Assembly: GCA_944324085.1 (NCBI GenBank)
Contig: CALUUX010000003.1
Location: forward strand, 1-64,000
Source of the DNA: an uncultured Mailhella sp.
GTDB taxonomy: Bacteria > Desulfobacterota > Desulfovibrionia > Desulfovibrionales > Desulfovibrionaceae
DNA: 64,000 nt
Direction: 5' to 3'
Shown here: positions 36,737-54,762 of the stretch, piece by piece
Layout: each line of letters opens with the position of its first letter
How positions within the stretch are numbered: position 1 is the stretch's first letter
Translations under genes and position numbers: made by a program
Notes under the pieces: generated by a model
Told to the model about the DNA's origin: nothing
Seen by the model: the letters and a program-made list of their open reading frames with translations, nothing else
Databases searched by the model: none

Positions 36737-39583
36737 TCACTGATAGTTGTTTTCCTTGTTGTAGGGATGCTTTTTCAGGTAGTCCAACCTGTCGTACAGT
36801 TCGCATCCCAGATTCCACGGACGCTGGCGGAGTTCCTCGCCGCGTTCGCGGGCGTCCATGGCGGCCTTGACCTTTTCCGGCGTCGCGGGAAGCGTGTAGA
36901 TGCGTACGTCCACGGCGTCGGCTATGGCGTTCAGAATGGCGGCGTGTCCCGCGCTCTGGAAGCCTTCGGAACATCCGGTTCCGCCGAACGGAGCGTCGGG
37001 GCGCGGCGTTTCGTGGAAAATGACCCGGATGTTGTCGGGAACGTTGTTGCAACGCGGCACGCCGGCTCCGAGCATGGTGGCGTGTTTTTTGACGTCGTCG
37101 TAATTTTCGCTGAGGGCGAAGCCCAGCGCGTGGGAGAATCCGCCCCACGCCTGGCCCAGCGCGCCGTGCTGGCTGCCGATTTTGCCGATGTCGGCAATGA
37201 CGGTGGCTTGCGTCACCTGCGTTTTGCCCGTGGCGACGTCCACTTCCACTTCGGCGAGGAAGAGCATGTAGTTCTGCTCTATGGCGCCGTATCCGTGACC
37301 GGAGTCCGGATCAATGTTGGCGGAGATTTTTTCGAATTTCCCCAGGTATCTGGTGGGAATGTTTTCGTCTTTCATCTCCTGATAGGTGCGGAAGGTGCCG
37401 TCCGGTTTGCGCATGGCGTCGAGCAGCTGCCTTGCGGCGTCCTGCGTGGCCTTGCCGCCGACGTGGAAGGAACGGCTGCCTCCCGAAGGTCCCATGTCCG
37501 GAGTGAGGGCGGTATCGCCGGAAACGAAATGAAGCTGTTCCGGCTTGAGTCCCAGAGGACGCAGGCATTCATGAAGATGAACCAGCGCCGCCAGATCCGC
37601 GCCCTGGCCGATGTCCATCCAGCAGTTGAACATGGTGACGGTATTGTCGGGGTTGAGTTCAAGAACGATCTCGGAATGTTCCGGAGAAGGCTTGCCGACG
37701 TGATATCCGCCCCAGGCAATGCCGACGCCGTGTTTCTTTTCCGCGGTGTCGGCCTGACGGGCGTTTTTCACGGCCTCGTCGTAGTAGGGTTTCATCATGT
37801 CCATCATGGCCTGCATGGGATATTCCCGGTACGGAACGGACGTGGTGCACAGATCGCCTTCATGCGCGATGTTTCTGTAGCGGATTTCAAAAGGATCCAT
37901 GCCGATTTTCTTCGCCAGCATGTCCACGAGCTGTTCGCTCGCCATATAGGTCTGCGGCGAGCCGAAGCCCCGGTATTGAACGCCGAAATTGTTGTTGGTG
38001 TAGGCCATCTGCACGAGACCGCGTATGTTGTCGATGGCGTACGGATACCCGAAGAAGCGGGCGATTTTGGAGGCCAGCGCGCCCGCGCTTTCGTCGTACG
38101 CGCCGTGGTCTACGCCCACATGATATTCCATGGCGAGGAATTTGCCGTTTTCATCGCAGGCCAGGCGCGCGTTGGTGTACGCCGGCGACCGCTTTCCCGT
38201 AAAGCTCTGATGTTCTTCGTAGCTCATGACCAGAGAAACCGGCGCGTTGAGCGCGAGAGCGCACGCGGCCGCGAGCGCGGGCGCGCCCGGCGACATGGAG
38301 TAGCCGAAGCTGCCGCCTACGGGATTTTGGATGATATGGATTTTTTCCTGCGGCAGGCCGATGGCGTTCGCCATGAAGTAAATGGCGCTGTGCGGCCACT
38401 GGGCCTTGTACTGGACGGCCACGCCGCCGTCGCCTTCGGGATAGGCCTGAACGCATTCCGGTTCAAGCACCAGATGCGGTTCTCGGCTGGTGCTGAAACT
38501 GCCGGACACGGAAAACGGCGCGTTGTCGATGACGCGTCTGGCGTCTTCGCCCTTGTGCATCGGCTGTTCCATGAACAGGTTGGGAACGCCGACGTTTGCC
38601 ACATGTTCGTGAATGGGCTTGGCCGAGGGATCAACCGTCTGCTCGTAGGTCATGTAGGCCGGCAGAGGTTCATAGTCCACGACGACTTTCGCGGCCGCGT
38701 TGCGGGCTTCTTCACGCGTTCTGGCGGCGACCACGGCCACGATGTCGCCGTATCTGTACACCGTGTCGTCACAGATGACGGGGCGTCCCTTGGCGTCGGA
38801 ATAATGACGCACGGGGCCGAAGGGCGCGTCCAGTCTGTTGGTGCCCTTCACGTCCTTGGCGGTGATGATCTTCACGACGCCGGGCATGCTTTGCGCTTCT
38901 TCCGCATGGATGCCTTTTATGGACGCGTGATGCGTTCTGGCCTGCACGACCGCCAGATGATAGGTGCCGGCCGGCATTTTCTGCGCGATGTCCGCGCCGT
39001 ATTCGCACTGGCCCAGAACGCGGGCGAGCGCGCCTGGCTTGGGCACGGCGGAACCGAACACCGACCCGTCGGACGGCGGCGTGAAGGTGATGTCCTGCAT
39101 GGTTTTTTCGCCGCGCAGCACGGCGGCGGCCGCCATGACCGCGTCCACGATGGGTTTGTAGCCGGTGCAGCGGCAGATGTTGTTATGACTGGTGAACCAG
39201 TCGCGCACCTGCTGACGGGTGGGAGAGGGATTTGTGTCGAGCAGGCCCTTGGCGGACATGATGAAGCCGGGCGAGCAGAAGCCGCACTGCACGCTCGCGT
39301 AGGTCATGAACGCCCGCTGAAGAGGATGAAGCCGTTCTTCGGTGCCGAGGCCTTCAATGGTTTCCACGCGCGAGTGATCGGGCACGGTTTTCATCTTCTT
39401 GGTGCATGAACGGATCACCTTGCCGTTGAGGATCAGGGTACAAGCTCCGCACTGACCGGTTCCACAGCCGACTTTGGTTCCTGTAAGGCCCATTCGCCGG
39501 ACAACGTCCGCCAGGGAATCCTTTTCCGGATCGCAGACGCCTTCGCGTTGCACTCCGTTTATGATAAGGATAAAGCGCCTCAT
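36737..39583 (-). CDS. mop: Molybdopterin aldehyde oxidoreductase (MOP, xanthine-oxidase family)
   Basis: A 948-residue single-chain enzyme oxidising aldehydes to acids. Two [2Fe-2S] domains come first: C40, C45, C48 and C60, then C100, C103, C137 and C139, the same numbers as in the D. gigas enzyme. The molybdenum-cofactor domains follow. A catalytic Glu candidate is E873 in FGGTGCSEG, near the position of the D. gigas active-site Glu (869). No FAD domain is present, as in MOP. It lies 164 bases downstream of dctP on the same strand, so it probably belongs to the uptake operon and could oxidise acetaldehyde released by the GRE. It has its own ribosome site (AAGGAG). Confidence 0.93.
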   Translation of the reverse strand: MRRFILIINGVQREGVCDPEKDSLADVVRRMGLTGTKVGCGTGQCGACTLILNGKVIRSCTKKMKTVPDHSRVETIEGLGTEERLHPLQRAFMTYASVQCGFCSPGFIMSAKGLLDTNPSPTRQQVRDWFTSHNNICRCTGYKPIVDAVMAAAAVLRGEKTMQDITFTPPSDGSVFGSAVPKPGALARVLGQCEYGADIAQKMPAGTYHLAVVQARTHHASIKGIHAEEAQSMPGVVKIITAKDVKGTNRLDAPFGPVRHYSDAKGRPVICDDTVYRYGDIVAVVAARTREEARNAAAKVVVDYEPLPAYMTYEQTVDPSAKPIHEHVANVGVPNLFMEQPMHKGEDARRVIDNAPFSVSGSFSTSREPHLVLEPECVQAYPEGDGGVAVQYKAQWPHSAIYFMANAIGLPQEKIHIIQNPVGGSFGYSMSPGAPALAAACALALNAPVSLVMSYEEHQSFTGKRSPAYTNARLACDENGKFLAMEYHVGVDHGAYDESAGALASKIARFFGYPYAIDNIRGLVQMAYTNNNFGVQYRGFGSPQTYMASEQLVDMLAKKIGMDPFEIRYRNIAHEGDLCTTSVPYREYPMQAMMDMMKPYYDEAVKNARQADTAEKKHGVGIAWGGYHVGKPSPEHSEIVLELNPDNTVTMFNCWMDIGQGADLAALVHLHECLRPLGLKPEQLHFVSGDTALTPDMGPSGGSRSFHVGGKATQDAARQLLDAMRKPDGTFRTYQEMKDENIPTRYLGKFEKISANIDPDSGHGYGAIEQNYMLFLAEVEVDVATGKTQVTQATVIADIGKIGSQHGALGQAWGGFSHALGFALSENYDDVKKHATMLGAGVPRCNNVPDNIRVIFHETPRPDAPFGGTGCSEGFQSAGHAAILNAIADAVDVRIYTLPATPEKVKAAMDARERGEELRQRPWNLGCELYDRLDYLKKHPYNKENNYQ

Positions 39584-39644
39584 GCTAATACTCCTTGGAA
39601 CAATGAGGAAAAGTAAGAAGTTGGCGTCGAGTCGACCTGGGGAA

Positions 39645-39691
39645 ACGGTACGTTATGATAAAATTCAGGAGACTGCAAAGTAACGTTTCCT
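39645..39691 (-). other. Imperfect hairpin between dctP and mop
   Basis: GGAAACGGTACGTTA and TAACGTTTCC can pair around a 25-base loop. It might tune transcript levels between transporter and enzyme; no U-tract is seen. Confidence 0.3.
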
Positions 39692-39747
39692 ATGGCGCGC
39701 TGACAGAGATGTTATATAATGACGCTGGCGCTGTATATGCGCTGAAC

Positions 39748-40746
39748 TTAGCTGTTTTTGGCGAGTTCGACGCGAATCTGCTCAACGAGCTCCTTCTGCT
39801 GGGGATCAAGGAGATCATAGACCTTCTTGGTGCGCTCGATCCAGCGAGCCTTTTCCTTGGGATCCAGCTGGGTGATGACGATGTTGTATTTTTCGCGGAG
39901 TTCTTTGTAGGTTTCTTCGGTGGCGGTTTCGTAACGCTTCTTCAGATCTTCGTAAAACGCGTTGGCGGCTTCGTCGAAAACGGCCTTGTCTTCGTCGGAA
40001 AGGCTCTTGTACCACTTGTCATTGCCGAAGAAGGCGAAGGCGACGACGCTGTAGTCGGCCAGCAGAACGTGCTTGATGACGTCGCAGAAACGATAGCTGA
40101 TGAGGCCGGTGACGTCAGTGTCGGAGCCGTCAACGACGTGCTGCTGAATGGCGGGCACCATTTCCGAGGGAGGAAGCGGGCTGGGCGTCATGCCGAGGGC
40201 GGAAATGATGCCCATGTGAATCTTGTTCGCGGTGGAGCGGAACTTCTTCCCCTGAATGTCTTCCAGCGTGCGCCAGTATTCGATGGTGGCCATGGGCCGA
40301 TAGCTGCTGGGGATGATGTTGTAGATCTTGATTCCTTTCTTTTCCAGAATGTTCAGAATATGCGTTTTGCCGAATTCGCTGTTGATGACTTTGGCCATGT
40401 CGGCGGCGGTCAGGAACAGGTAGGGGCAGTCCGTGATGCCGAGTCTGGAGTCGAACTGGGACAGGTTGGAAGTCGTTTCAAAGCCGAAGTGGATGGTGCC
40501 GAACTGAATGCCCTGCACGACGGTGTCGCATGCGCCCAGCGAGTTGCTGTAATACAGGTCGACCTTGTATTTACCCTTGCTCTTTTCTTCCACCACCTTC
40601 TTGAAGGTGGAGAGAGCCTGACCGGGATGGTCCGTGATGTTATTTTGGCATGATACTTTGATTGATATAGGCTCGGCATAGGAATTTTCCGCAGGAAATG
40701 CCATAAAGAGGCCGATCATGACAGATAATGAAACGAGTTTGCGCAT
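39748..40746 (-). CDS. dctP: TRAP transporter solute-binding protein DctP
   Basis: A 332-residue periplasmic receptor that captures an organic anion for the DctQM permease. A signal peptide ends at about residue 24 (AENSYA). The core shows the TRAP pattern of a central SSYRPMATIEYWRTLEDIQGKKFRS segment, where a conserved Arg usually holds the ligand carboxylate or sulfonate. Third gene of dctQ-dctM-dctP on the minus strand; the context suggests a sulfonate such as isethionate as ligand. Confidence 0.93.
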   Translation of the reverse strand: MRKLVSLSVMIGLFMAFPAENSYAEPISIKVSCQNNITDHPGQALSTFKKVVEEKSKGKYKVDLYYSNSLGACDTVVQGIQFGTIHFGFETTSNLSQFDSRLGITDCPYLFLTAADMAKVINSEFGKTHILNILEKKGIKIYNIIPSSYRPMATIEYWRTLEDIQGKKFRSTANKIHMGIISALGMTPSPLPPSEMVPAIQQHVVDGSDTDVTGLISYRFCDVIKHVLLADYSVVAFAFFGNDKWYKSLSDEDKAVFDEAANAFYEDLKKRYETATEETYKELREKYNIVITQLDPKEKARWIERTKKVYDLLDPQQKELVEQIRVELAKNS

Positions 40747-40801
40747 ACTTTCTCCTTGAAAGCGTTAAGAGTTGATCTGCATCACTTTGCAGTCTTCCTG
40801 A

Positions 40802-42067
40802 TCAAACGAGTAAGAGAGTAATTTGAGGAATGTACGTTATAAGCAGCAGAACGATCAGCATGGCCAGAATGAATGGCAGCACGGCTCTCGACAGCTGCAT
40901 GATGCTTAGTCCGGAAATGCCGCAGGCGACAAACAGATTCGTTTCCACGGGAGGCGTGAGGAAGCCTATGCACAGCGCCACGGTCATGAAGATGCCGAAG
41001 TGTATGGTGTCAACGCCGTAGCTGCGGACCAGGGGAACCAGCAGCGGGGTCATGATCAAGATGCACGCGGAGGAGTCCAGGATGGTTCCGAGCAGAAGCA
41101 GCAGGATGAGCATCAGGGCCATGAACACGGAAGCGTCCGAAGTCAGCGTGTGCACGGCGACGATGAGCATTCTGTCCACATTGTGGTAGCCGAGAAAAAC
41201 GCCGAGCGCGGTGGCGCCGATGATGACGAGGAAGATGGAGGAGAGCATTCTCATGGAAGAGGCGAGACAGTCGCGGAACAGCTTCAACGTCATGCTTCGA
41301 GTGACGAAGGTTTCGATCACCAGCGCGTAAACCACGGCGATGCAGCCCGCTTCCGTGGGCGTGGTGATGCCGCCGTAAATGCAGCCGAGAACGATGACGG
41401 GAACCAGAATGGCGTATTTGGCATCCCATATGGCCTTGATGCGTTCCTTGGCGGAGGTCTTAGGATGGCGGATGCCGTAGTCGTGCTTGTGGATGATGAT
41501 GGCGGCCGTGATCATGAAGGCGATGGCCACGAGAATGCCGGGAATGATGCCGGCTATGAACAGGCCGGTAATGGATACGCCGCCGGTGGCGCCGTAAAGG
41601 ATCAGCGGAACCGACGGGGGAATGAGAACGCCCAGGCCGCCGGCGGACGCGTTGACCGCCGTGGAAAAGCTGTTGGGATATCCTTCCTTGACCATGGCGG
41701 GGATCATGATGCCGCCCACGGCCGCGACGGTCGCCGCCGCGGAACCGCACAAGGCACCGTAAAACAACGCGGTCAGAATGGAAATGTGAACCAGTCCGCC
41801 TCTCAAGTGTCCGACCAGGCTGCTGCACATGCCAAGCAGGGAGTTGGCAAGGGTTCCCCGCTGCATGATATCGCCGGCCAGCAGGAAGAAGGGAATGGCC
41901 ATAAGGGGGAAGGAGTCAAAGGTATTGTAGAGCTTTTGGGTGAAAAACACGATGGGCGTTCCATCCGCAATGACGCCGGCGAGCGTGCTCAGGCAGAGCG
42001 CGACGCCTATCGGGGTGCCGATAATCAACAAAGCGATGAGAATAACAAAAAGAATGAGGATCGACAT
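40802..42067 (-). CDS. dctM: TRAP transporter large permease DctM
   Basis: A 421-residue membrane protein with about 12 helices, the sodium-coupled transport subunit. Typical stretches are FPLMAIPFFLLAGDIM, ASAGGLGVLIPPSVPLILYG and GFLTPPVETNLFVA. It starts 4 bases after dctQ, so the two are translationally coupled. Confidence 0.95.
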   Translation of the reverse strand: MSILILFVILIALLIIGTPIGVALCLSTLAGVIADGTPIVFFTQKLYNTFDSFPLMAIPFFLLAGDIMQRGTLANSLLGMCSSLVGHLRGGLVHISILTALFYGALCGSAAATVAAVGGIMIPAMVKEGYPNSFSTAVNASAGGLGVLIPPSVPLILYGATGGVSITGLFIAGIIPGILVAIAFMITAAIIIHKHDYGIRHPKTSAKERIKAIWDAKYAILVPVIVLGCIYGGITTPTEAGCIAVVYALVIETFVTRSMTLKLFRDCLASSMRMLSSIFLVIIGATALGVFLGYHNVDRMLIVAVHTLTSDASVFMALMLILLLLLGTILDSSACILIMTPLLVPLVRSYGVDTIHFGIFMTVALCIGFLTPPVETNLFVACGISGLSIMQLSRAVLPFILAMLIVLLLITYIPQITLLLV

Positions 42068-42071
42068 ATTC

Positions 42072-42554
42072 TTACCCCTTTGTGATGAGCTTCTTGAAAT
42101 GATTGCAGAAGGATTCGAGAGCGGCGACTGTGCATATAACGCAGTAGAAGCACATTATGGCCCAGGTAATATAGATGGGATAAGGGAAGGCGAACGCCCG
42201 TTGGTCCAAATCATGAACGCGGCTCGTCATGTCCCAGGTGAGATAGACGAGAATGGCAAAGAAACACAGATTTATGAATTCGCACAGCGTAAGTAAAAAT
42301 TCTCTTGATTTTCCTTTAGTAAAATATATCAGAAGATCTATTCTGAGATGATTTTCCTCTTTCGTGACCACGGCAAAGCCGCTATAGGCAAGCCATATAA
42401 AGAAGAAACGAGACATTTCTTCCGGCCATGCTAGAGCTTGATTTAATACATATCGACAAAAAACTTGTAAGAAAATAATCATGGTCATGACAAAGAGAAA
42501 TGTCATGCCGGAATATTCTGCTATTTTTTGACAAAGCGTAAAAAATTTTTTCAT
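42072..42554 (-). CDS. dctQ: TRAP transporter small permease DctQ
   Basis: A 160-residue protein with four helices and the conserved RYVLNQALAWPEEMSRFFFIWLAY segment (given in two overlapping parts of the usual motif, W-x-E-E). It partners DctM. First gene of the minus-strand operon that starts in the AT-rich region; the ribosome site AAGGAG precedes the ATG. Confidence 0.93.
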   Translation of the reverse strand: MKKFFTLCQKIAEYSGMTFLFVMTMIIFLQVFCRYVLNQALAWPEEMSRFFFIWLAYSGFAVVTKEENHLRIDLLIYFTKGKSREFLLTLCEFINLCFFAILVYLTWDMTSRVHDLDQRAFAFPYPIYITWAIMCFYCVICTVAALESFCNHFKKLITKG

Positions 42555-43558: not shown

Positions 43559-43575
43559 TTGGCATGATAATTGCT
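43559..43575 (+). promoter_or_regulatory. Sigma-54 promoter of the GRE operon
   Basis: TTGGCATGATAATTGCT matches YTGGCACGRNNNTTGCW at all fixed positions but one, with GG (43561-43562) and GC (43573-43574) exactly 10 bases apart. The start site would be near 43586. The operon encodes its own sigma-54 activator. Confidence 0.8.
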
Positions 43576-44685: not shown

Positions 44686-44734
44686 TTCCCGGAACAAGTG
44701 CGGAAGCACAAGCCAATTCTTGAGGAGCATTACC

Positions 44735-47233
44735 ATGTCATGCTGTGAACATCTGGCGTATTCTGGCCAGGAACAGACCATTCTCGATAGAATCGCGGGC
44801 AAGCGCGATCCCAATGAACTCAAACATCCCCGCCTGTACAAACTGATCAGCGTTTTTGACGGAAAGAAGCCCTTCATTGACGTGGAACGCGCCCGTCTGT
44901 TCACGGAATCCATGAAGGAAACCGAGGGCGAAATGCTCGTTCTGCGCTGGGCCAAGGCGTTGAAGCACATGGGCGAGAACATGACCGTCTACATTGACGA
45001 CGATCAGCTCATCGTGGGCCGCATGGGCCATCAGGGTTCGCGTTACGGCATTCTTTATCCCGAGCTTGACGGCGACTATCAGGCGTCGGCTCTGAAGGAA
45101 CTGCCCGCCGATCCCGCGTCTCCTTTTGAGGTGACGGCCGAAGACTCCAAGGTGGTGGAAGAACTCATCACGCCCTACTGGAAGGACAAAACGTTCCATC
45201 AGGATCTGAACAAGCGTCTGCCCAAGGATTCCCATCGTCTGGCCTATGCCGACGAAGGCGGCTATCAGTCCCGCTACATTTGCTGCGAAACGGCGTCCAA
45301 CCGTTCCAGCCTTCAGTGGTGCCTGGACTATGAGCGTCTGCTCAAGCTCGGCTATAAGGGGATCAAGGAAGAGGCTCTTGCCGCCCTTGCCGCGCTGGAT
45401 CCCGACGATCCTCTGGATCAGTGCGAAAAGCGGCCGTATCTCGAAGCCATGGTGCTGCTGAGCGAAGGCATTGTCACCTGGGCGCATCGTTACGCGGCCA
45501 AGGCTCGCGAGCTGGCCGCCGCGGAAAAGAACGAACAGCGTCGCAAGGAACTTCTTCAGATCGCCGAAAACTGCGACTGGGTTCCTGAAAATCCCCCGCG
45601 CACGTTTTATGAAGCCCTTCAGTCGCACTGGTTCGTGCAGGCTTTCGCCCGTCTGGAGCAGAAGATCAGTTCGAATCCCACGAACGGCCGTATGGATCAG
45701 CTGTTCTGGCCCTACTATGAAAAGGACGTGCGCGAAGGACGGCTTGACGAAGACAAGGCCGTGGAGCTGTTGCAGTGCATGTGGGTCAATATGGCGCAGT
45801 GCCTCGATCTGGCCATCACGCCCTACAACAAGGCCACGCATGAAGGCTACTCCCACTGGGAGGCCGTGACCATTGGCGGACAGACGCGGGACGGTCGCGA
45901 CGCCACCAACGAACTCACCTATGTCGTGCTTCGCTCCAAGCGGGAATGTCCGCTGCATTATCCCGATCTTGCGGCGCGCATTCATGCCCGCAGTCCTGAA
46001 AGATACCTGTATGAAGTGGCGGAAACCATCAAGCAGGGTTGCGGTTTCCCCAAGCTGCTCAACGACGAGGAAATCATTCCCCTGCATCTTGCCAAGGGCG
46101 CGCCTCTTGCGGATATCTATGATTATGCGGCTTCCGGCTGCGCCGAAATACGCATGCCCAGAGTGGACACCTACACCAGCGGTCACGCGCAGTTCAGTCT
46201 GGGCGCGGCGGTGGAACTCACGCTGTACAACGGTCGCATGAAGAAGTTCGGAGACGAGCTGCTGACGCTGGAAACCGGCGACGTGCGGACCTTTGACACG
46301 TGGGAGAAGTTCTGGAACGCCTACGTGAAGCAGCAGATGTTCATTATTCGCCACGCGTTCCTTCAGCAGTACTACATCATTCAGACGAGAGCCGAGCACT
46401 TCGCCACGCCCATTTCCGACTCTCTGCACGTGCTGGCCATGCGCGAATGCGTGGATCTGCATCAGCATCACCAGTATAAGGGCGGCCTGAATCTCGGCTA
46501 CTTTGAATGTCTGGGCTACAGCACCGCCATTGATTCCCTCGCCGCCATCAAGAAAGTGGTTTATGAGGACGGCGTTCTTTCCATGCAGGAAGTGCTGGAC
46601 GCGCTGGAGTGCGATTTTGTCGGCAAGGAAGACGTGCAGGCCATTCTCGCCAACGCGCCGAAGTACGGCAACGACGACGAATACGCCGACAGCATCGGTC
46701 TTGAGATTGACCGTCTGGCGCAGGAATTCAGCGCGAAGTACGCGCAGAGACTGGGCATACGTTGCGACTTCCGCATGGTGCCGTTCACGTCGCACGTGCC
46801 TTTCGGACGCGTGGTGTCCGCCACGCCCAACGGCCGCAAGGCGTGGACGCCTCTTTCCGACGGTTCTTCCGCGTCGCACGGAGCGGACATCAACGGCCCC
46901 ACGGCGGTGCTGCGTTCCAACTTCAACACGAAGAACTACAATATGAGCCAGCGCGCGGCGCGCCTGCTCAACGTGAAGTTTTCGCCCAAGTGCCTTGAAG
47001 GGGAAAGCGGAACCAGAAAACTTGTGGATTTCATCCGCGTCTTTTGCGATTTGCGTCTGTGGCATGTGCAGTTCAACGTCATCAATCGCGAAACGCTCAT
47101 TCAGGCGCAGCAGCATCCTGAACTCTACAAGGGGCTGATTGTGCGCATCGCCGGGTACAGCGCGTACTTTACGGAATTGTCCAGAGACCTGCAAAATGAC
47201 CTTATAGCCAGAACGGAACACGATAAGGTCTAG
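44735..47233 (+). CDS. islA: Glycyl radical sulfonate C-S lyase, isethionate sulfite-lyase (IslA) type
   Basis: 832 residues, oxygen-sensitive and cytoplasmic; predicted to split isethionate into acetaldehyde and sulfite. The thiyl cysteine is C469 and the general base E471 in SGCAEIRMP; the glycyl radical is G807 in VRIAGYSAYF. Sulfonate contacts reported for Bilophila IslA (R189, Q193, R678) correspond to R190, Q194 (RSSLQW) and R680 (FRMVPF), all present; the published numbers are from memory. The N-terminus MSCC and total length also fit. HpsG (dihydroxypropanesulfonate lyase) is a close alternative that these residues do not exclude. ATG at 44735 has GAGGAG upstream; the TTG five codons earlier is rejected. 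Confidence 0.82.
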   Translation: MSCCEHLAYSGQEQTILDRIAGKRDPNELKHPRLYKLISVFDGKKPFIDVERARLFTESMKETEGEMLVLRWAKALKHMGENMTVYIDDDQLIVGRMGHQGSRYGILYPELDGDYQASALKELPADPASPFEVTAEDSKVVEELITPYWKDKTFHQDLNKRLPKDSHRLAYADEGGYQSRYICCETASNRSSLQWCLDYERLLKLGYKGIKEEALAALAALDPDDPLDQCEKRPYLEAMVLLSEGIVTWAHRYAAKARELAAAEKNEQRRKELLQIAENCDWVPENPPRTFYEALQSHWFVQAFARLEQKISSNPTNGRMDQLFWPYYEKDVREGRLDEDKAVELLQCMWVNMAQCLDLAITPYNKATHEGYSHWEAVTIGGQTRDGRDATNELTYVVLRSKRECPLHYPDLAARIHARSPERYLYEVAETIKQGCGFPKLLNDEEIIPLHLAKGAPLADIYDYAASGCAEIRMPRVDTYTSGHAQFSLGAAVELTLYNGRMKKFGDELLTLETGDVRTFDTWEKFWNAYVKQQMFIIRHAFLQQYYIIQTRAEHFATPISDSLHVLAMRECVDLHQHHQYKGGLNLGYFECLGYSTAIDSLAAIKKVVYEDGVLSMQEVLDALECDFVGKEDVQAILANAPKYGNDDEYADSIGLEIDRLAQEFSAKYAQRLGIRCDFRMVPFTSHVPFGRVVSATPNGRKAWTPLSDGSSASHGADINGPTAVLRSNFNTKNYNMSQRAARLLNVKFSPKCLEGESGTRKLVDFIRVFCDLRLWHVQFNVINRETLIQAQQHPELYKGLIVRIAGYSAYFTELSRDLQNDLIARTEHDKV

Positions 47234-47248: not shown

Positions 47249-47284
47249 CGGCCCGGAGCGGACGTTCCGGGCCGTATTTTTTTA
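47249..47284 (+). terminator. Intrinsic terminator between the GRE1 and activase genes
   Basis: CGGCCCGGA/TCCGGGCCG perfect 9-pair stem followed by TATTTTTTT. The activase ribosome site AGGAG starts at the end of the U-tract. It would lower activase and downstream expression relative to GRE1. Confidence 0.85.
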
Positions 47285-47293
47285 GGAGCCTTC

Positions 47294-48184
47294 ATGAGCG
47301 CGACTCTCGGCACTATTTTCAATATCCAGAAGTTTTCCATCCATGACGGACCGGGAATACGCACGCTGGTTTTTTTCAAGGGATGTCCCTTGCGCTGTTT
47401 GTGGTGTTGCAATCCGGAATCTCAGTCTCCGGAACTCGAACATGGCTATAATCCCGACAAGTGTTTCGGATGCGGGCGTTGCGTGGCGAGATGTTCTCAC
47501 GGCGTGCTCTCGCTGAAGGAAGACCGCACCTTGGACATACGACGCGACCTTTGCCGGGCCGAATGTCCGGACTGCGTCAAGGTATGCCCGGACAAGGCTT
47601 TGGTTTTCTACGGAAAACGGTACACTGTGGAAGAGGTGCTGAAGGTTGTGGAGCAGGACGCGCTGTTCTATACCCGTTCAGGAGGGGGGCTGACCGTGAG
47701 CGGAGGAGAGCCGCTCATGCAGCCGGAATTTCTTTTGGCGTTGTGCAAGGAGGCCAGACGCAGAAGAATAGACGTGGCTATGGAAACCAGCGGCTTCGCT
47801 TCCGAAGACGTGTTTCTTTCCGTCATGCCCTGGGTGGGATATCTTATGGTGGACGTCAAGCACATGGATGACGAAACGCATCGACGCGTCACGGGGGTGT
47901 CGAATCGTCCTATTCTTTCCAACCTGCGCGCGTTGCGGCGGGAGTTTCCCAACATGCCGTTGCGCGTGCGCACGCCCGTCATTCCTGGCGTCAACGATTC
48001 GGAAGAGAATCTTATGGCGACCAGCGAGTTCGCCCGTTCGCTGGGAGCGGAGTACGAGCTGCTTGCCTACCACAGCATGGGGCGTTCGAAATACCGTTCG
48101 CTCGGCCGACCGTATCCCATGGGCGACGCGGAGCTTTCCAAAGAAGCGTTTGCGTCTCTGCGGGAAAAGGTGTCTTCCCTATAA
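47294..48184 (+). CDS. islB: Radical SAM activase of GRE1 (IslB type)
   Basis: 296 residues. It installs the glycyl radical using SAM and a [4Fe-4S] cluster. The family opening SIHDGPGIRT is intact and the cluster motif is GCPLRCLWC (CxxxCxxC). A ferredoxin-like insert with two cysteine groups follows (CFGCGRCVARC and CRAECPDCVKVC), as in activases of the choline and isethionate lyases. SGGEPLMQP and MVDVKHMD are the SAM-contact segments. Placed directly after GRE1 behind a terminator. Confidence 0.88.
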   Translation: MSATLGTIFNIQKFSIHDGPGIRTLVFFKGCPLRCLWCCNPESQSPELEHGYNPDKCFGCGRCVARCSHGVLSLKEDRTLDIRRDLCRAECPDCVKVCPDKALVFYGKRYTVEEVLKVVEQDALFYTRSGGGLTVSGGEPLMQPEFLLALCKEARRRRIDVAMETSGFASEDVFLSVMPWVGYLMVDVKHMDDETHRRVTGVSNRPILSNLRALRREFPNMPLRVRTPVIPGVNDSEENLMATSEFARSLGAEYELLAYHSMGRSKYRSLGRPYPMGDAELSKEAFASLREKVSSL

Positions 48185-48208: not shown

Positions 48209-50608
48209 ATGAAACGCGCACAGACTCCCGTGTCGTACCGTCGTCCTTCGCATCTGCGCAGACGCATCAGCTTGATAGCTTCTTCCCGTCCGCGACTGCT
48301 TATGGACAGAGCGGTGTATTTCACCGAGTCCATGAAGGAAACGGAAGGGGAGGAGCTTCCGCTGCGTTGGGCGAGGGCTCTCGTTCACGCGCTGGAGCGC
48401 GTTCCCGTGGAGCTTTCTCCCGACGAGTTGCTTGTCGGTTCGTTGGGCTCCGGCCGGTACGGCATTTTTTACCCCGAGCTGGACAGCGTGTTTGTGGAAG
48501 GGGAGGCCTTCGATCCGGAAGAGTTCTTTTTGTCCGAGCGCGACATGGAGCTCGTGCGCGACCGCGTTCTTCCGTACTGGCGCGGCCGCACCTATCCGGA
48601 ACTTTTCTACGCCGAGCTTCCTGACGAGATCAGGAATTTGTTGTATATCGACGACGATCCGTTTCATCCGGCGTTTATTGTGCAGGAAACGGCCACGGTG
48701 CGTCATTCCCTGCAGTGGGCGCTGGACTACAGCAAGGTGATTCGGCGGGGGTTCCGCGGCATTGCGGAAGACGCGGAGCGCATGAAGGAGATGAGTTCCG
48801 ATCCTTCCAAGCGCAGTTTTTACACGGCGGTGGCTGAGCTGTGCCGGGGGATTCGGCGTTTTTCCGAACGGTTCGCGTCGTTGGCGGAGGAGCAGGCTCT
48901 TGGCGCGAACACCGAGGAATTTCGCGAGAATCGCCTGGAGCTCGCCGAGCGTTGCCGTCGCGTGCCGTGGGAGCCGTCCGGCAGTTTTGTGGACGCGCTT
49001 CAGGCGCAGTGGATCACGCAGATGGTGTCCCGCATGGAAGCGGAATACGGAGGCAACGTCAGCAACGGGCGCATGGATCAGTATCTCTGGCCGCTGTATC
49101 GGCATGACCGGGAAAACGGACTGCTGACGGAACAGCGGGCTCGCGAGTATCTTGACGATTTGTGGTGTCACATCGCCCAGTTCGTCCGTCTGAAGCCTTC
49201 GCCCACGGGAGCCAAGATCTACGAGGATCTCGCGCACTGGGAATTCACCACGCTGGGAGGAATGCTTCCCTCCGGGGAGGACGCCACCAACGAACTTTCC
49301 TACCTTCTGCTTCATTCGGCGTCGGAATTTCCTCTTGATTATCCGTACGTCGGCATACGCATTCATCGGGACACGCCGGAAGCGTTTCTTCGGGACGTGT
49401 GCCGCGTGACCCAGAGAAATGACGTCAGTCCGGTTCTTTTCAACGACGAGACCATCGTGGCCAGACAGAGAGCCAACGGAGCCACGCTGGAGGAGGCCCG
49501 CGACTACTGCGGCAGCGGATACTCCGAAGCGCGTCTCATCAACCGGGACACCTATTTCGTCGGCGCGACGTGGCTGAATCTTCCGGCCGTGCTGGAAATG
49601 GCGTTGCGGGACGGCTTTTGTTCGCCCAATCCATGTAGGCGCATGGGGCTGCCCACCGGCGCGGCGGCGGACATCCGGGATTTTTCTTCGCTGATGACGT
49701 GTTTTCGTCGTCAGCTTCTGCACATTCTCGATCTTTCCTTCCGTCAGCAGGCGATTCTTGAGCGGCTGCGTCCGCAGATCATCGCGTCGCCGCTGTTGTC
49801 CAGCCTGCATGATCTCTGCATGAAGCACGGCGTGGACGTGGCCGCGGGGCTTGTGCCCGAGGGGAGGAGCATCGGGGGCTTTCTCGGCATCATCGGTTTC
49901 GCCACTGTGGTGGACTCGCTGGCCGCCATCGACACGTTGGTGTTCCGGGAGCGGCGGCTTTCTCTGCCTGAATTGCTCGACATTCTTGCGGCGAATTTCG
50001 AGGGGCATGAGGACGTGCGTCAGCTTTGCCTGAACTGCCCCAAATACGGCAACGGCACCGCGTGGGTGGACGCCATAGGTCGGGACATAGACAGAATGTT
50101 GCTCAAGCGCGCCCGCTCCGAAGTGAACGCCTACGGCGGCCGCGGAGAAATTTTTTATGTGCCCGTCAAGGCGCATATCGCCATGGGGCGGGTGTCGGGC
50201 GCGACGCCGGACGGGCGTTTCGCCGGAAACAACTTCTCGTTCGGCGTCACGCCGTCGCTGCTGGTGGGCAAGCTGGGGCCGACGGTTTCGCTGAGCTCGG
50301 AAATGGCCGTGCAGAACCCTGACATTCCGTCTCTCGGCGCGAGGGTTATGTTTTCCACGCTTCTTCCCGGCCAGGCGTGCGGCGAGGCGGGGCTGGAAAC
50401 GCTTATGTCCGTGATTCGGACGTGGTGCAGACAGCCGCACTGGTTTCTTCGTTTTCAGATTCTCACGCCGGCGGAATTGACGGTGTTACGCAATTCCCCC
50501 TATGAATACAACAGTCTTTTTTTGAACATTCCGGGATTTAATTCTCAGGGATATTCCTTTCCTTCCGCGGCGTTTTCTTTTAAGTGTCCGTTGCATGAAG
50601 CCAGATAG
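48209..50608 (+). CDS. GRE-family pseudoenzyme: active-site Cys replaced by Tyr
   Basis: 799 residues, alignable to GRE1 throughout (FTESMKETEGE, NGRMDQYLWP, the SSLHDLCMKHGVD region), with a shorter N-terminus. The catalytic motif is SGYSEAR: Y438 (codon TAC) stands where GRE1 has C469, while E440 is kept; a cysteine occurs four residues earlier (C434). The radical loop is LNIPGFN instead of VRIAGYS: G776 is kept, the Arg is Asn. R165 and Q169 (VRHSLQW) match the sulfonate-contact pair, but R680 of GRE1 is F649. It cannot use the normal thiyl mechanism. It is co-transcribed with GRE1, 24 bases after its activase. Partner subunit, sensor or new enzyme are open possibilities. Confidence 0.85.
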   Translation: MKRAQTPVSYRRPSHLRRRISLIASSRPRLLMDRAVYFTESMKETEGEELPLRWARALVHALERVPVELSPDELLVGSLGSGRYGIFYPELDSVFVEGEAFDPEEFFLSERDMELVRDRVLPYWRGRTYPELFYAELPDEIRNLLYIDDDPFHPAFIVQETATVRHSLQWALDYSKVIRRGFRGIAEDAERMKEMSSDPSKRSFYTAVAELCRGIRRFSERFASLAEEQALGANTEEFRENRLELAERCRRVPWEPSGSFVDALQAQWITQMVSRMEAEYGGNVSNGRMDQYLWPLYRHDRENGLLTEQRAREYLDDLWCHIAQFVRLKPSPTGAKIYEDLAHWEFTTLGGMLPSGEDATNELSYLLLHSASEFPLDYPYVGIRIHRDTPEAFLRDVCRVTQRNDVSPVLFNDETIVARQRANGATLEEARDYCGSGYSEARLINRDTYFVGATWLNLPAVLEMALRDGFCSPNPCRRMGLPTGAAADIRDFSSLMTCFRRQLLHILDLSFRQQAILERLRPQIIASPLLSSLHDLCMKHGVDVAAGLVPEGRSIGGFLGIIGFATVVDSLAAIDTLVFRERRLSLPELLDILAANFEGHEDVRQLCLNCPKYGNGTAWVDAIGRDIDRMLLKRARSEVNAYGGRGEIFYVPVKAHIAMGRVSGATPDGRFAGNNFSFGVTPSLLVGKLGPTVSLSSEMAVQNPDIPSLGARVMFSTLLPGQACGEAGLETLMSVIRTWCRQPHWFLRFQILTPAELTVLRNSPYEYNSLFLNIPGFNSQGYSFPSAAFSFKCPLHEAR

Positions 50609-50622
50609 CAGGCGGGCCCGTC

Positions 50623-52494
50623 ATGTCGAAATCCACCAGAGATGAGAAGTTCCCCGTGTCTTCTCTTTCTTTTCTTTCCCTTGATAGCATACGGATCGTG
50701 ACGGAAACGCTTTCCGTCGGCGTGATGCTTGTCGATGCCGACGGCGTGCTCTATCACGTCAATCAGGCGGCGCAGTTTCTTCATCAGGGGGGCGGCGTTC
50801 CCAAGGCGGGCTTTCCGCTGGCGGATGTCAGCCCTCATGACTGGGTGGAAGTGAAAAAAGTGCTGACCACCGGCGTGCCGCAGATCTGTTCTCTGCTGCG
50901 CATGCCCATGGCGACGGTGCTGGTCAGCCGCATGCCCGTCATGCGTCTCGGCGCGACGGTCGGCGTCATGACCATGATGCAGGACATCAACAATTTTAAC
51001 GCCGCGCTCCATGAGTTTCCCGAATTTCAGAATCTCGCCCGTGAGTTTGAAACGGCGGTCGAGCAGTTCGAGGGCGTTTTTTTGTCCTTGAACAGCCGCG
51101 GAATTATTCGTCATGTCAATTCCGCGTATGAAAAGCTCATTCTTTTGGGGCGGCAGGGTCTTGTCGGACGACATATTGAGGACGTTCAGCGGTCGCCCCG
51201 CCATCTGGTGTCGCTGTTCAACGAGGCCAAGGCGTCCCGAGCCGTGGCGACCATGCCCGTCGCGCTTCCCACGGGAAAGACGCTTCAGGGATGCGCCACG
51301 CCGTCTTTTGATGAAAACGGCGAGCTGTTCCGTGTGATGCTCCGTCTGAAGAGCGCGGTTTCTCCCGCCGCGGAAACGAGCCGGCCCGCGGCTTCCGTCG
51401 CGCCGAAGCCGAGCGTGCCCTCGGCGGAATTGCAGCGAGTCTGTCACGCTTCCGGGTTCACGGTGCACAGTTCCGCGATGAATCATGTGGTGCAGCAGGC
51501 CCTCAAGGTGAGCAAGACCAGCTCCTGCGTGCTCATCACCGGGGAATCCGGCGTGGGAAAGACCATGCTGGCCTCTCTGATCCACAACAACAGCGGCCGG
51601 AGTTCCCGACCTTTTGTGGTCATCAACTGCGGAGCGATTCCGGAACAGCTTCTGGAAAGCGAACTTTTCGGCTATGAAAAGGGCGCGTTCACCGGCGCGA
51701 ACGCCCATGGAAAGATGGGACTGATAGAGACGGCCGACAAAGGCACGCTTTTTCTGGACGAGATAGGCGAACTTCAGTATAGTCTTCAGTCTAACTTGCT
51801 TGAAGTATTTGAAAAAAAGTCATTCATCAGAGTCGGCGGAACGAAAAGGACGTCGGTCGACATACGCATTCTCGCCGCCACCAACAAAAACCTGGCGGAA
51901 GAGGTGGAGAAGGGCAATTTTCGTCGGGATTTGTTTTATCGGCTCAATGTCATTCCCATAGCCATTCCGCCGCTTCGCGAGAGGCCCGAGGACATTCAGG
52001 CTATGATCGAACAGCTGATAAGCCAGTATAATTCGCAAAACGGCGCGTCCAAGAAAATGTCTTCCGAGCTTTTGCGCTGGCTTCTTCGCTATCCCTTCCG
52101 GGGGAACATGCGCGAGCTCGTCAATATCATGGAATGGCTGCTGGTGATGAGCGAGAACGACGTGCTTGGCCTGCACGATTTGCCCTCGCGGTTGCAGCAG
52201 GAATATCATCTGACCGAGCAGGCCAGAGTGGAGCCGGCGTCCTTGCCGGACATCACTCAACCGGTCAGTTCTGCGGCGGCGTTTTCCGTTCCGGATATAA
52301 AGATGGGGGTTTCTCTCAAGGATGCCGTGGCGGCGTTTGAAAAAAGTTATCTTGAAAAAGCCATGAAGAAGTACGGCTCCATACAGGCCGTTTCCGACGC
52401 GCTTGACGTGCATTTTTCCACGTTGTGGCGCAAGCTCGTGAAATATGATCTGGTCCAGAACCATGCCGCGCAGGAGAAAAAGTATGTCCCATAG
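50623..52494 (+). CDS. Sigma-54-dependent activator with PAS domains
   Basis: 623 residues. Two PAS-like regions (about 20-120 and 140-240) are followed by a variable linker. The AAA+ domain has Walker A GESGVGKT at 307-314, the sigma-54 contact GAFTGA at 354-359, Walker B TLFLDEIGEL and the arginine region RRDLFYRLNVIPI. A C-terminal helix-turn-helix of the TyrR/PrdR kind (about 570-615: SIQAVSDALDVHFSTLWRKL) completes it. No receiver domain is present, so it probably senses a small ligand or redox state directly. It likely drives the sigma-54 promoter at 43559, giving positive feedback because the gene is inside the operon. Confidence 0.93.
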   Translation: MSKSTRDEKFPVSSLSFLSLDSIRIVTETLSVGVMLVDADGVLYHVNQAAQFLHQGGGVPKAGFPLADVSPHDWVEVKKVLTTGVPQICSLLRMPMATVLVSRMPVMRLGATVGVMTMMQDINNFNAALHEFPEFQNLAREFETAVEQFEGVFLSLNSRGIIRHVNSAYEKLILLGRQGLVGRHIEDVQRSPRHLVSLFNEAKASRAVATMPVALPTGKTLQGCATPSFDENGELFRVMLRLKSAVSPAAETSRPAASVAPKPSVPSAELQRVCHASGFTVHSSAMNHVVQQALKVSKTSSCVLITGESGVGKTMLASLIHNNSGRSSRPFVVINCGAIPEQLLESELFGYEKGAFTGANAHGKMGLIETADKGTLFLDEIGELQYSLQSNLLEVFEKKSFIRVGGTKRTSVDIRILAATNKNLAEEVEKGNFRRDLFYRLNVIPIAIPPLRERPEDIQAMIEQLISQYNSQNGASKKMSSELLRWLLRYPFRGNMRELVNIMEWLLVMSENDVLGLHDLPSRLQQEYHLTEQARVEPASLPDITQPVSSAAAFSVPDIKMGVSLKDAVAAFEKSYLEKAMKKYGSIQAVSDALDVHFSTLWRKLVKYDLVQNHAAQEKKYVP

Positions 52495-53410
52495 TCCTTT
52501 GCGATGCCTTGTCAGCGGAATCCAGCATTTTTCCCCCTGCGTCGGGCACGGTCTGCGCACCACCATTTTTTTGGCGGGTTGTCCTCTGCGTTGCTTCTGG
52601 TGCTGCAATCCTGAATGCCGCATCAACAGACCGGTGCTGGTTTGCAATATGGAAAAATGCATCGGACGGCACGCCTGTGGGCATTGCATGGACGCCTGCC
52701 CGAATTCGGCCATTTACAGCAGCAAGAATGTCATTCGCGTGGCGCGCGACCGTTGCCGCAATTGCGGGGCGTGCGTTTCCCGCTGTCCGTCCGGCGCGTT
52801 GTTCATGAGCGGCCGTTCCATGAGTCCCGAGGAAATCATGGAGGACGTCATGAAGGACAAGGATTACATCATGAACGGAGGCGGCGTCACGCTGAGCGGC
52901 GGCGAACCTATGATGCATCCCCAGGAATCGGCGGAAATACTTCGTCTCGCGCACAGCCTCGGCCTGCATACGGCCATGGAGACCTGCGGTTTTTTTGATC
53001 TTGACGCCCCGGCCGCCATAGCCGCGCTTCAGGAGACGGATCTGCTGTTTTTTGACATCAAGCATAGCGATCCGCTTATCCATCGCCGGGGCACGGGCGT
53101 GGATAATTCCAGAATTCTTTGCAATTTTGAACGGATATCCGTGGAATTTCCCCATTTGGAACTTCACAGTCGCACGCTCATCGTTCCGGGATTCAACGAC
53201 GACGACGCCACCATGCGCAATATCGCGCGCATTGTGAAGAGAACTGGATCGTTCTTGCATATTCTTGAAGTGTATTCCGGCATCTGCCAGGATAAATACG
53301 CGCAGCTCGGCATGCCGTTCAGTCAGTTTCCGGCGTCTCTGGCTCAGGGGAGGATGGAAGCCATCATGGATATTTTCCAGGAAGAAGGGCTTTCCGTGGA
53401 ACTTCATTAA
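52484..53410 (+). CDS. Second GRE activase-like radical SAM protein, diverged
   Basis: 308 residues. ATG at 52484 overlaps the regulator's stop by 11 bases and has CAGGAGAAAA upstream. The cluster motif GCPLRCFWC is intact, two ferredoxin-type groups follow (CGHCMDACP and CRNCGACVSRCP), and the SGGEPMMHP and FFDIKHSD segments are present. The usual opening HDGPGIRT has become CVGHGLRT, losing the Asp and Pro. It is best seen as the partner of the second GRE, which is also diverged; which GRE it acts on is unknown. Confidence 0.82.
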   Translation: MSHSPLRCLVSGIQHFSPCVGHGLRTTIFLAGCPLRCFWCCNPECRINRPVLVCNMEKCIGRHACGHCMDACPNSAIYSSKNVIRVARDRCRNCGACVSRCPSGALFMSGRSMSPEEIMEDVMKDKDYIMNGGGVTLSGGEPMMHPQESAEILRLAHSLGLHTAMETCGFFDLDAPAAIAALQETDLLFFDIKHSDPLIHRRGTGVDNSRILCNFERISVEFPHLELHSRTLIVPGFNDDDATMRNIARIVKRTGSFLHILEVYSGICQDKYAQLGMPFSQFPASLAQGRMEAIMDIFQEEGLSVELH

Positions 53411-53643: not shown

Positions 53644-54762
53644 ATGTTGCAGCTTCTTTTCAAACCGGAACTTCACTATTTCGACACGTGTCGGGAATTC
53701 GCGGAACGGTTTCGCATTACGGCTGACGATCTCGTGCTCACCAACAAATATATTTATGAGCCTTTTTTCGGTCCGTTGGATCTTCCCGCCATGACGCTGT
53801 ATCAGGAAGAATTCGGATCCGGCGAGCCGTCGGACGTTATGGTGAACGCCATTCTTGAAGCCATGGAAACGAAGGCCGTCCGCCGCGTCATAGCCGTGGG
53901 AGGAGGCACCATCATCGACATCGCCAAGGTTTTGGCCGTGGCTCCGACCGGGGAGCGCGTGGATGATCTTTTCCGCGACATGGGAAATCTTCAGTCGCGG
54001 CGCGAACTGGTCATTCTTCCCACCACGTGCGGAACGGGCAGTGAAGTGACCAACATTTCCATACTCAACAGAACGAGCATGGGCACCAAAATGGGATTGG
54101 TTTCTCCGTCCATGTTTGCCTCGCAGGCCGTGCTCGTGCCGGAACTTCTGTCCACGCTGCCTTACGGCGTGTTCGCCACGAGTTCCATCGACGCGCTCGT
54201 GCACGCCGTGGAATCCGCGCTTTCTCCCAAGGCCACGCCGTACACGCGCATTTTCAGTGACAAGGCGATGCAGCTGATTCTTCGCGGGTATCAGCGCGTG
54301 CGGCAGGAGGGGCCGCAGGCCCGCGTGCCGCTGATGAAGGATTTTCTCATCGCCAGCAATTTCGCGGGGCTGGCTTTCGGCACGGCCGGATGCGCCGCCG
54401 TGCACGCCCTGAGCTATCCGCTCGGAGGCTCTTTCCATGTTCCGCACGGGGAATCCAACTATGCGCTTTTCGTGGCCGTGCTCAAGGCGTACCGTCGCGT
54501 TCGTTCGGACGGCGCGCTTGCGGAACTGGAGTCTTTTCTTGCGTCCGAACTGTCCTGCGAGCCGGAGGAAGCGTTCGACGCGCTCGGCGAGCTGCTGGCC
54601 GCGATTCTTCCTTTGAAGCGTCTGCGCGAGTACGGCATGAAGGAAGAGGACATTCCCTCCTTCGCGGGAAACGTGCTGGCGTCGCAACAGAGACTGCTGG
54701 CCAATAATTACGTTCCGCTTTCGGAGCGGCAGATCGAAGAGATTTACGCCTCACGCTGGTAG
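53644..54762 (+). CDS. Iron-containing alcohol dehydrogenase (sulfoacetaldehyde reductase or 4-hydroxybutyrate dehydrogenase type)
   Basis: A 372-residue group III dehydrogenase. NAD(P) loop VIAVGGGTIIDIAK, then LPTTCGTGSEVT. Metal ligands D183, H187, H254 and H268 are all present (SSIDALVHAVES, VHALSYPLGG, FHVPHGESNY). Members next to isethionate lyase genes include the sulfoacetaldehyde reductase that makes isethionate from taurine-derived sulfoacetaldehyde. Reduction of the aldehyde product of the GRE is another possibility. No taurine transaminase is in the window to decide between them. The ribosome site is CAGGAGG; a strong terminator follows. Confidence 0.85.
   Translation: MLQLLFKPELHYFDTCREFAERFRITADDLVLTNKYIYEPFFGPLDLPAMTLYQEEFGSGEPSDVMVNAILEAMETKAVRRVIAVGGGTIIDIAKVLAVAPTGERVDDLFRDMGNLQSRRELVILPTTCGTGSEVTNISILNRTSMGTKMGLVSPSMFASQAVLVPELLSTLPYGVFATSSIDALVHAVESALSPKATPYTRIFSDKAMQLILRGYQRVRQEGPQARVPLMKDFLIASNFAGLAFGTAGCAAVHALSYPLGGSFHVPHGESNYALFVAVLKAYRRVRSDGALAELESFLASELSCEPEEAFDALGELLAAILPLKRLREYGMKEEDIPSFAGNVLASQQRLLANNYVPLSERQIEEIYASRW

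Follow-up and report, generated by a model that had tools for sequence, protein, structure and literature searches.

What does a glycyl radical enzyme (GRE) homologue do when it has lost its thiyl cysteine and is kept beside an intact sulfonate-type member of the same superfamily? The question is raised by a 64,000-nucleotide stretch of DNA from an uncultured Mailhella sp. (assembly GCA_944324085.1, contig CALUUX010000003.1, positions 1 to 64,000), the whole of which is called the window here. The gene in question, GRE2, encodes a PFL-like protein of 799 residues (48209–50608; this and all other features lie on the plus strand unless stated) and stands near a complete GRE, GRE1 (44735–47233). 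From its sequence we judge GRE2 to be a pseudoenzyme, as an initial annotation of this DNA had proposed: the cysteine is missing clade-wide, the glycyl loop is eroded, the motif of the linked activase is changed, and the gene is under purifying selection. Because the radical relay is lost, canonical GRE catalysis by GRE2 is very unlikely, and this copy has probably exchanged catalysis for sensing or regulation.

Loss of the thiyl cysteine and of the glycyl loop

The residue at the thiyl position of GRE2 is Tyr438 (codon TAC, 49520–49522), which aligns with the cysteine in the SGCAEIR motif of GRE1. The initial annotation had the same pair, and its C469 counts from the GRE1 ATG at 44735 (the frame is open from a TTG at 44720). 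The former glycyl loop, residues 773–779 (50525–50545), reads NIPGFNS where the canonical sequence is R[VI]AGYSA; the fingerprint R[VI]xG[FWY] has become NIPGF (within LFLNIPGFN), as compared with RIAGY in GRE1. The exchange of the loop arginine for asparagine reported earlier is real and belongs to position 773, not 774. In place of the tail of the glycyl domain there is a C-terminal motif, GxNxQGYxFPSAAF (50534–50575), found exactly in 10 of 13 close relatives (P0005, P0009 and P0013 deviate). The protein matches PF02901 with 449 bits, and the Gly_radical domain model, PF01228, finds no match in it at E 0.001, while the relatives P0019 and P0032 are still above the cut-off.

Other residues of the radical enzyme remain. 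Gly776, Glu440, Arg165 and Gln169 are all present in the alignment, as had been stated. The Arg-Gln-Arg sulfonate clamp is incomplete, with Arg165 and Gln169 retained and Phe649 at the third position, aligned with Arg676 of IseG and Arg678 of IslA. The NCBIfam HpsG-type model NF048011 scores 726.1 bits on GRE2, under its cut-off of 1000, and 1330.8 bits on GRE1, above it. GRE1, which is 35% identical to GRE2, carries the cysteine (SGCAEIR), the loop RIAGYSAYF and the full clamp; its description as an active-looking sulfonate lyase holds as a statement about sequence, given the three sulfonate-contact residues, the cysteine and the intact loop.

Structure prediction, which covered monomers, returned a PFL-like barrel for GRE2, with a mean predicted local distance difference test score (pLDDT) of 87.6 and a predicted template modelling (TM) score of 0.89. 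The model superimposes on the HpsG, IseG and IslA structures with TM scores of 0.87–0.90 at 37–39% identity. It is confident apart from residues 1–7 and 771–799, and the former glycyl loop is unplaced (pLDDT <50). With the same 53 relatives, the last four blocks average 56–69 in the GRE1 control and 36–53 in GRE2, a modest contrast. In IslA (residue numbers after PMC8473560), the C468S variant takes up the glycyl radical yet is inactive, and E470Q, Q193A, R189E and R678E are inactive as well (PMC8473560; here and below, published statements refer to the available portions of the papers cited). By analogy with C468S, GRE2 would be catalytically dead.

Repeated loss of the cysteine within a clade

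Homologues were taken from two protein searches (the best 120 of 323 and the best 120 of 337), and a midpoint-rooted tree was built from 82 chosen rows with the trait columns left out. All 42 rows on one side of this tree have the cysteine. On the 40-row side that holds GRE2 (Shimodaira–Hasegawa-like approximate likelihood ratio test support 94, not starred), 30 rows lack it and 10 have it. The tree requires at least three separate changes: in P0032, which has Tyr whereas P0033, 87% identical to it, has Cys; in a Ser group (P0035, P0125 and P0128); and in a 25-row clade carrying Tyr, Phe or Val. Absence of the cysteine is clade-wide, and the replacement varies among Tyr, Phe, Val and Ser.

In the starred clade to which P0001 belongs, none of the 13 rows has the cysteine, so that the check for an isolated mutation, which would have spoken against the initial annotation, came out negative. 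Non-Cys genes were also read in genome G178, on a 1.27-Mb contig, and in G192, a single 3.17-Mb contig, and an error in the window assembly is therefore no explanation. With the cysteine absent in 30 of 82 rows, including those on large contigs elsewhere, an isolated mutation and an assembly error are both ruled out. Two substitutes for the missing residue were considered. Use of Cys434, suggested earlier, is ruled out as a family-wide mechanism, since 10 of the 30 non-Cys rows have Ser, Thr or Ala there, and Tyr438 is unlikely to be a general radical relay, with Phe, Val or Ser at the site in relatives.

The loop is altered more widely than the cysteine. On the GRE2 side, 39 of the 40 rows no longer fit the fingerprint (P0129 still does); on the other side 41 of the 42 do (the exception, P0023, has RVAGH). 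Because nine Cys-bearing rows already show an altered loop, erosion of the loop appears generally to have preceded loss of the cysteine on this midpoint-rooted tree. Identity over residues 766–783 is 33% in 24 non-Cys rows, 38% in 12 altered-loop rows (8 of them with Cys) and 91% in 24 intact sisters; over the barrel (150–330 and 330–500) the same three sets give 56 and 59%, 67 and 64%, and 62 and 63%. Among single members, a Cys-bearing GRE2 relative with the loop HLPGY lies beside GRE1 in locus L045 (8557–11061), possibly an intermediate of the loss. P0049 and P0135 are Cys-bearing with odd loops (RMPKGF and RPIGY). In the most reduced relatives, P0021, P0038, P0044 and P0047, the glycyl domain is down to a short GLNT-type tail.

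Conservation of the pocket and of the reading frame

The pocket was compared between 24 non-Cys rows (Tyr in 11, Phe in 11, Val in 2) and 24 intact Cys-bearing sisters. Equivalents of IslA R189, I192, Q193, W374 and E470 are retained in 23, 24, 24, 24 and 24 of the non-Cys rows, respectively; the I192 equivalent is Leu throughout. The W374 equivalent is stricter in the non-Cys rows (24/24) than in the sisters, where Trp occurs in 10 of 24. Gly776 is likewise retained in 23 of the 24 non-Cys rows. The initial annotation had taken Phe649 as loss of the sulfonate arginine; the residue is as reported from the alignment with IseG and IslA, and damage as its cause is rejected. Because 11 of the 24 intact sisters also have Phe here, Phe649 is a subfamily trait and not a sign of inactivation, and the subfamily probably acts on a different substrate. 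Phe649 and Val653 are both common among the intact sisters.

The GRE2 frame is uninterrupted over its 799 codons, and the earlier statement that it is under selection is supported. Pairwise ratios of nonsynonymous to synonymous substitution (dN/dS, Nei–Gojobori; dS 0.9, partly saturated) are 0.158 and 0.155, near those of the regulator and the alcohol dehydrogenase; the other values are 0.03 for GRE1, 0.10–0.13 for AE2 and 0.12–0.13 for the regulator. This pattern supports purifying selection on GRE2.

An altered activase linked to GRE2

GRE2 is linked to AE2 (52484–53410), a homologue of radical S-adenosylmethionine (SAM) activases that retains CX3CX2C and has VGHG in place of DGPG. The aspartate of DGPG aligns with Asp16 of PFL-AE, which anchors the target glycine (PMC9326890), and is Val in AE2. 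By comparison, AE1 (47294–48184) has both HDGPG and CX3CX2C intact, and DGPG is retained in AE1 of every locus read. The CX3CX2C motif is at the aligned place in 51 of the 53 AE2 homologues listed, the other two being truncated sequences, and in all nine AE2 genes read in the loci and the window.

DGPG is replaced by VGHG or PGHG in the window and in L039, L040 and L041, and retained in L042–L046. In L042–L044 and L046 the cysteine is lost though AE2 keeps DGPG. Seven further GRE2/AE2 pairs, whose pairing is inferred, extend this picture: DGPG is altered in five from the 25-row clade (P0205, P0207, P0211, P0219 and P0223) and in P0230 beside P0049, where it reads DGHG, and is unaltered in P0217 beside the intact P0023. 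In genomes G191 and G192 (L040 and L039), Gly776 of GRE2 is Ser and AE2 has SIQ for the DIK of the window and PDFND for PGFND, both proteins being changed together.

Co-occurrence with GRE1 and gene order

A GRE2-clade gene (identity at least 43%, thiyl residue read) is present in 10 of 288 genomes of the family (G000, G178, G191, G192, G194, G041, G096, G097, G105 and G170), with Tyr at the thiyl position in seven, Ser in two and Cys in one. The frames are open in all ten, two of them to contig ends. Among the matches listed, with usually three candidates scored per genome, GRE1 at 75% identity or more occurs in the same ten genomes and no other (next best 64%); misses are possible. In the genus of the window, both genes occur in 5 genomes and neither in 14. 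The ten genomes span three genera and are not independent; the co-occurrence fits a functional link. A scan of a genome collection gave three loci, apparently those of G191, G194 and G105. A Mailhella metagenome-assembled genome (MAG; L007) has the same gene order, and P0006, 79% identical to GRE2 and recorded under the name Mailhella massiliensis, bears the annotation 'pyruvate formate lyase family protein'.

GRE1 and GRE2 lie on one stretch in eight loci (the window, L039, L040, L041, L043, L044, L045 and L048); the contigs of L042 and L046 stop before GRE1. The window has a PAS–sigma54 enhancer-binding regulator (50623–52494) after GRE2, overlapping AE2 by 11 bp. In L042–L046 the order is regulator–AE2–GRE2. 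With start codons chosen by us, the regulator frame runs 1–4 bp into that of AE2 in four of four loci (L043–L046), and the AE2 frame 1–4 bp into that of GRE2 in three, L045 having a 29-bp gap. In canonical control loci (G107, with 4,439 bases only, left out and L047 added), the GRE precedes its activase in 15 of 15. Distinctive in L042–L046 is that GRE2 comes last, tightly coupled behind the regulator and AE2.

Perfect sigma54 sites (TGGCACN5TTGCW), of which shuffled sequences lead one to expect 0.01–0.02 per locus, stand after GRE2 and before the GRE1 unit in L043 and L044. In both, a hairpin that by eye resembles a terminator comes after GRE2 and before the site. Beyond the site, L044 has an amidohydrolase and an MFS transporter (Pfam) ahead of GRE1 and AE1; in L043 the GRE1–AE1 pair lies some 3 kb away. 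In L041 a perfect site at 15954 is near the amidohydrolase start, on the opposite strand. The window itself has a -24/-12-like site with one mismatch, TGGCATGATAATTGCT (43560–43575), upstream of the amidohydrolase and GRE1.

Between GRE1 and AE1 of the window lies a hairpin followed by a T-run (47249–47274), resembling a terminator or attenuator. A GRE1–AE1 hairpin is present in eight of eight loci, of which the window, L039, L040 and L048 also show the T-run; the hairpin sequence differs in L043–L045. The folding z is -2.53 for the 60-base gap of the window and ranges from -1.40 to -5.17 across five of the eight loci. The terminator scan overall gave 19 hits against 16.7 expected.

Of the remaining neighbours, the amidohydrolase (PF04909; 43776–44606) recurs between loci. 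An iron-containing alcohol dehydrogenase (53644–54762) has weak similarity to the sulfoacetaldehyde reductase SarD and to the regulatory alcohol dehydrogenase-like ErcA, with scores far under the cut-off in both cases. The minus strand upstream (36737–42554) carries a molybdenum-hydroxylase-like open reading frame of 948 residues and three TRAP-transporter-like frames, identified by eye.

Possible roles of GRE2

The role that we rank highest, and hold tentatively, is that GRE2 and AE2 form a ligand-binding regulatory partner of the PAS–sigma54 activator. The pocket of GRE2 would bind a ligand, GRE2 with the altered AE2 would contact and act on the adjacent activator, and the activator would switch on the GRE1 sulfonate-lyase operon; we infer each of these steps from sequence. 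In favour of the proposal are the conserved pocket, the regulator–AE2–GRE2 order with its frame overlaps, unlike the order of canonical loci, and the perfect sigma54 sites ahead of the GRE1 unit in L043 and L044. Several observations weigh against it. Ligand binding and regulator contact are drawn from gene order and frame overlaps, and the regulator has a PAS match of its own. All 15 canonical GRE loci include a sigma54-regulator homologue within the stretch retrieved, and in 11 we read it as adjacent, so that adjacency alone is not special. L045 shows the regulator–AE2–GRE2 order with a Cys-bearing GRE2, which makes the arrangement independent of cysteine loss, and in the window type GRE2 comes after AE1 and before the regulator. 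A perfect sigma54 site occurs in three of eight scanned loci, at a fitting place in only two, and the window-wide scan for such sites gave no excess over chance, its best hit being the one-mismatch site. Retention of the iron-sulfur/SAM motif by AE2 has no explanation in the regulatory proposal.

The main rival, which we consider less likely than regulation though the closest to it, makes GRE2 an inactive partner subunit, or 'prozyme', in a heteromer with GRE1 that activates, stabilises or restrains GRE1. Joint presence of the two genes in the same 10 of 288 genomes, from three genera, speaks for it, as do the dimeric state of characterised GRE eliminases (PMC8473560), the activation of trypanosome AdoMetDC and deoxyhypusine synthase by dead paralogues (PMC5201418, PMC3663545) and a weak TRE1/TRE2 interaction (PMC11528403). 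Against it, GRE2 is 35% identical to GRE1 and groups with a different GRE subfamily, one with an activase of its own, and the window-type hairpin between GRE1 and AE1–GRE2 suggests unequal expression. In L043–L045 GRE2 is upstream of GRE1, behind the regulator and AE2; a simple 1:1 subunit is disfavoured because GRE2 is coupled to these two genes, apart from the GRE1–AE1 pair. A pure scaffold would need no conserved pocket, and is disfavoured because the pocket is strictly conserved. That same conservation, near-invariant despite the loss of cysteine, would suit a non-radical enzyme in which Glu440, Arg165, Gln169 and Trp344 are reused for the acid-base conversion of a GRE1-pathway intermediate. 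Purifying selection agrees with such an enzyme, and the frequency of Phe649 and Val653 in intact sisters suggests a related ligand. The fold has no precedent for this chemistry in the literature examined, however, and the kept, altered activase is left without explanation, so we regard the idea as unlikely.

Slightly less likely again is that AE2 still places a radical on Gly776, giving a Cys-less, non-catalytic radical protein that serves as a redox or oxygen signal or as a radical store. Gly776 is retained in 23 of 24 non-Cys rows, Cys-less PflB C418A/C419A (PMC12338860) and IslA C468S (PMC8473560) take up the glycyl radical, and in G191 and G192 the glycine and the DIK motif of AE2 changed together. 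On the other side, 39 of 40 rows have lost the fingerprint, AE2 has Val where PFL-AE has Asp16, one lineage does without the glycine, the loop is unplaced in the model, and PflB C418A/C419A was unable to replace GrcA (PMC12338860). Least probable by far is that GRE2 is a decaying relic without function. The stepwise loss of the cysteine, the loop and the activase motif would accord with decay, but the frames are open in all ten genomes, dN/dS is 0.155–0.158, and most close relatives share the new tail motif. A broader form of the regulatory proposal is somewhat more doubtful than the proposal itself: a natural GRE-fold family without radical catalysis, in which the cysteine was lost at least three times and a new motif came to replace the old one in the activase of the deepest branch, would sense the sulfonate pathway in the cytoplasm and drive the sigma54 activator. 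A radical remaining on Gly776 might then serve as a redox signal.

Comparison with known systems

The GREs and aminoacyl radical enzymes (AAREs) described in the available portions of the literature examined depend on passing a radical to a conserved cysteine. A clade in which barrel and pocket stay under selection while this relay is dropped, with a matching change in the activase, is a natural experiment on what the GRE fold can do without such chemistry. Surveys of gut metagenomes could also miscount GRE2-like genes as active lyases. Should GRE2 control GRE1, it would give access to the formation of sulfite and H2S from sulfonates by gut Desulfovibrionaceae; among 48 Ca. Mailhella genomes, 75% are reported to have homologues of hpsGH and islAB (PMC13219744). 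No natural inactive or Cys-less GRE was found in the literature searched, where most subscription papers were out of reach.

GRE2 shares its fold with IslA/IseG and HpsG (PDB 7kq3, 5ymr and 6lon) and keeps the equivalents of R189, Q193, W374 and E470. It differs from them in having neither the thiyl cysteine nor the R[VI]xG[FWY] loop, and in the changes of Arg678 to Phe, in the sulfonate clamp described for IseG (PMC6453916), and of Phe682 to Val. Engineered IslA C468S and PflB C418A/C419A also miss the thiyl cysteine, and the Cys-less PflB bears a glycyl radical but is inactive (PMC12338860); these are laboratory variants of active enzymes, whereas the loss in GRE2 is natural, clade-wide and accompanied by erosion of the loop. 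The nearest published case is that of the AAREs, from a study whose starting set exceeded 25,000 PFL-domain sequences (Fu et al. 2024, PMC11528403). Like GRE2, they are GRE homologues that depart from the canonical type and have an activase gene close by, and many come from gut MAGs. AAREs have Ala, Ser or Thr for the radical glycine, preserve the cysteine and form radicals; GRE2 of the window has Gly776 (Ser in G191, G192 and P0005), lacks the catalytic cysteine, and has a linked activase that keeps CX3CX2C without DGPG. The portions of the AARE study examined describe no Cys-less group.

The trypanosomatid AdoMetDC and deoxyhypusine synthase prozymes resemble GRE2 in that a dead paralogue is kept beside an active enzyme, as far as the available accounts of them go. 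GRE2 differs in not being a recent duplicate of GRE1, and shares with it a co-occurrence (10 of 10 genomes) only, the heteromer being hypothetical. GrcA/YfiD, the autonomous glycyl radical cofactor, is a non-enzyme offshoot of the GRE superfamily that has kept the glycyl domain and lacks the barrel, and GRE2 is the reverse. Trigger-type regulatory enzymes and pseudoenzymes bind a ligand and contact a transcription regulator, and the likeness of GRE2 to them is one of gene order and frame overlaps.

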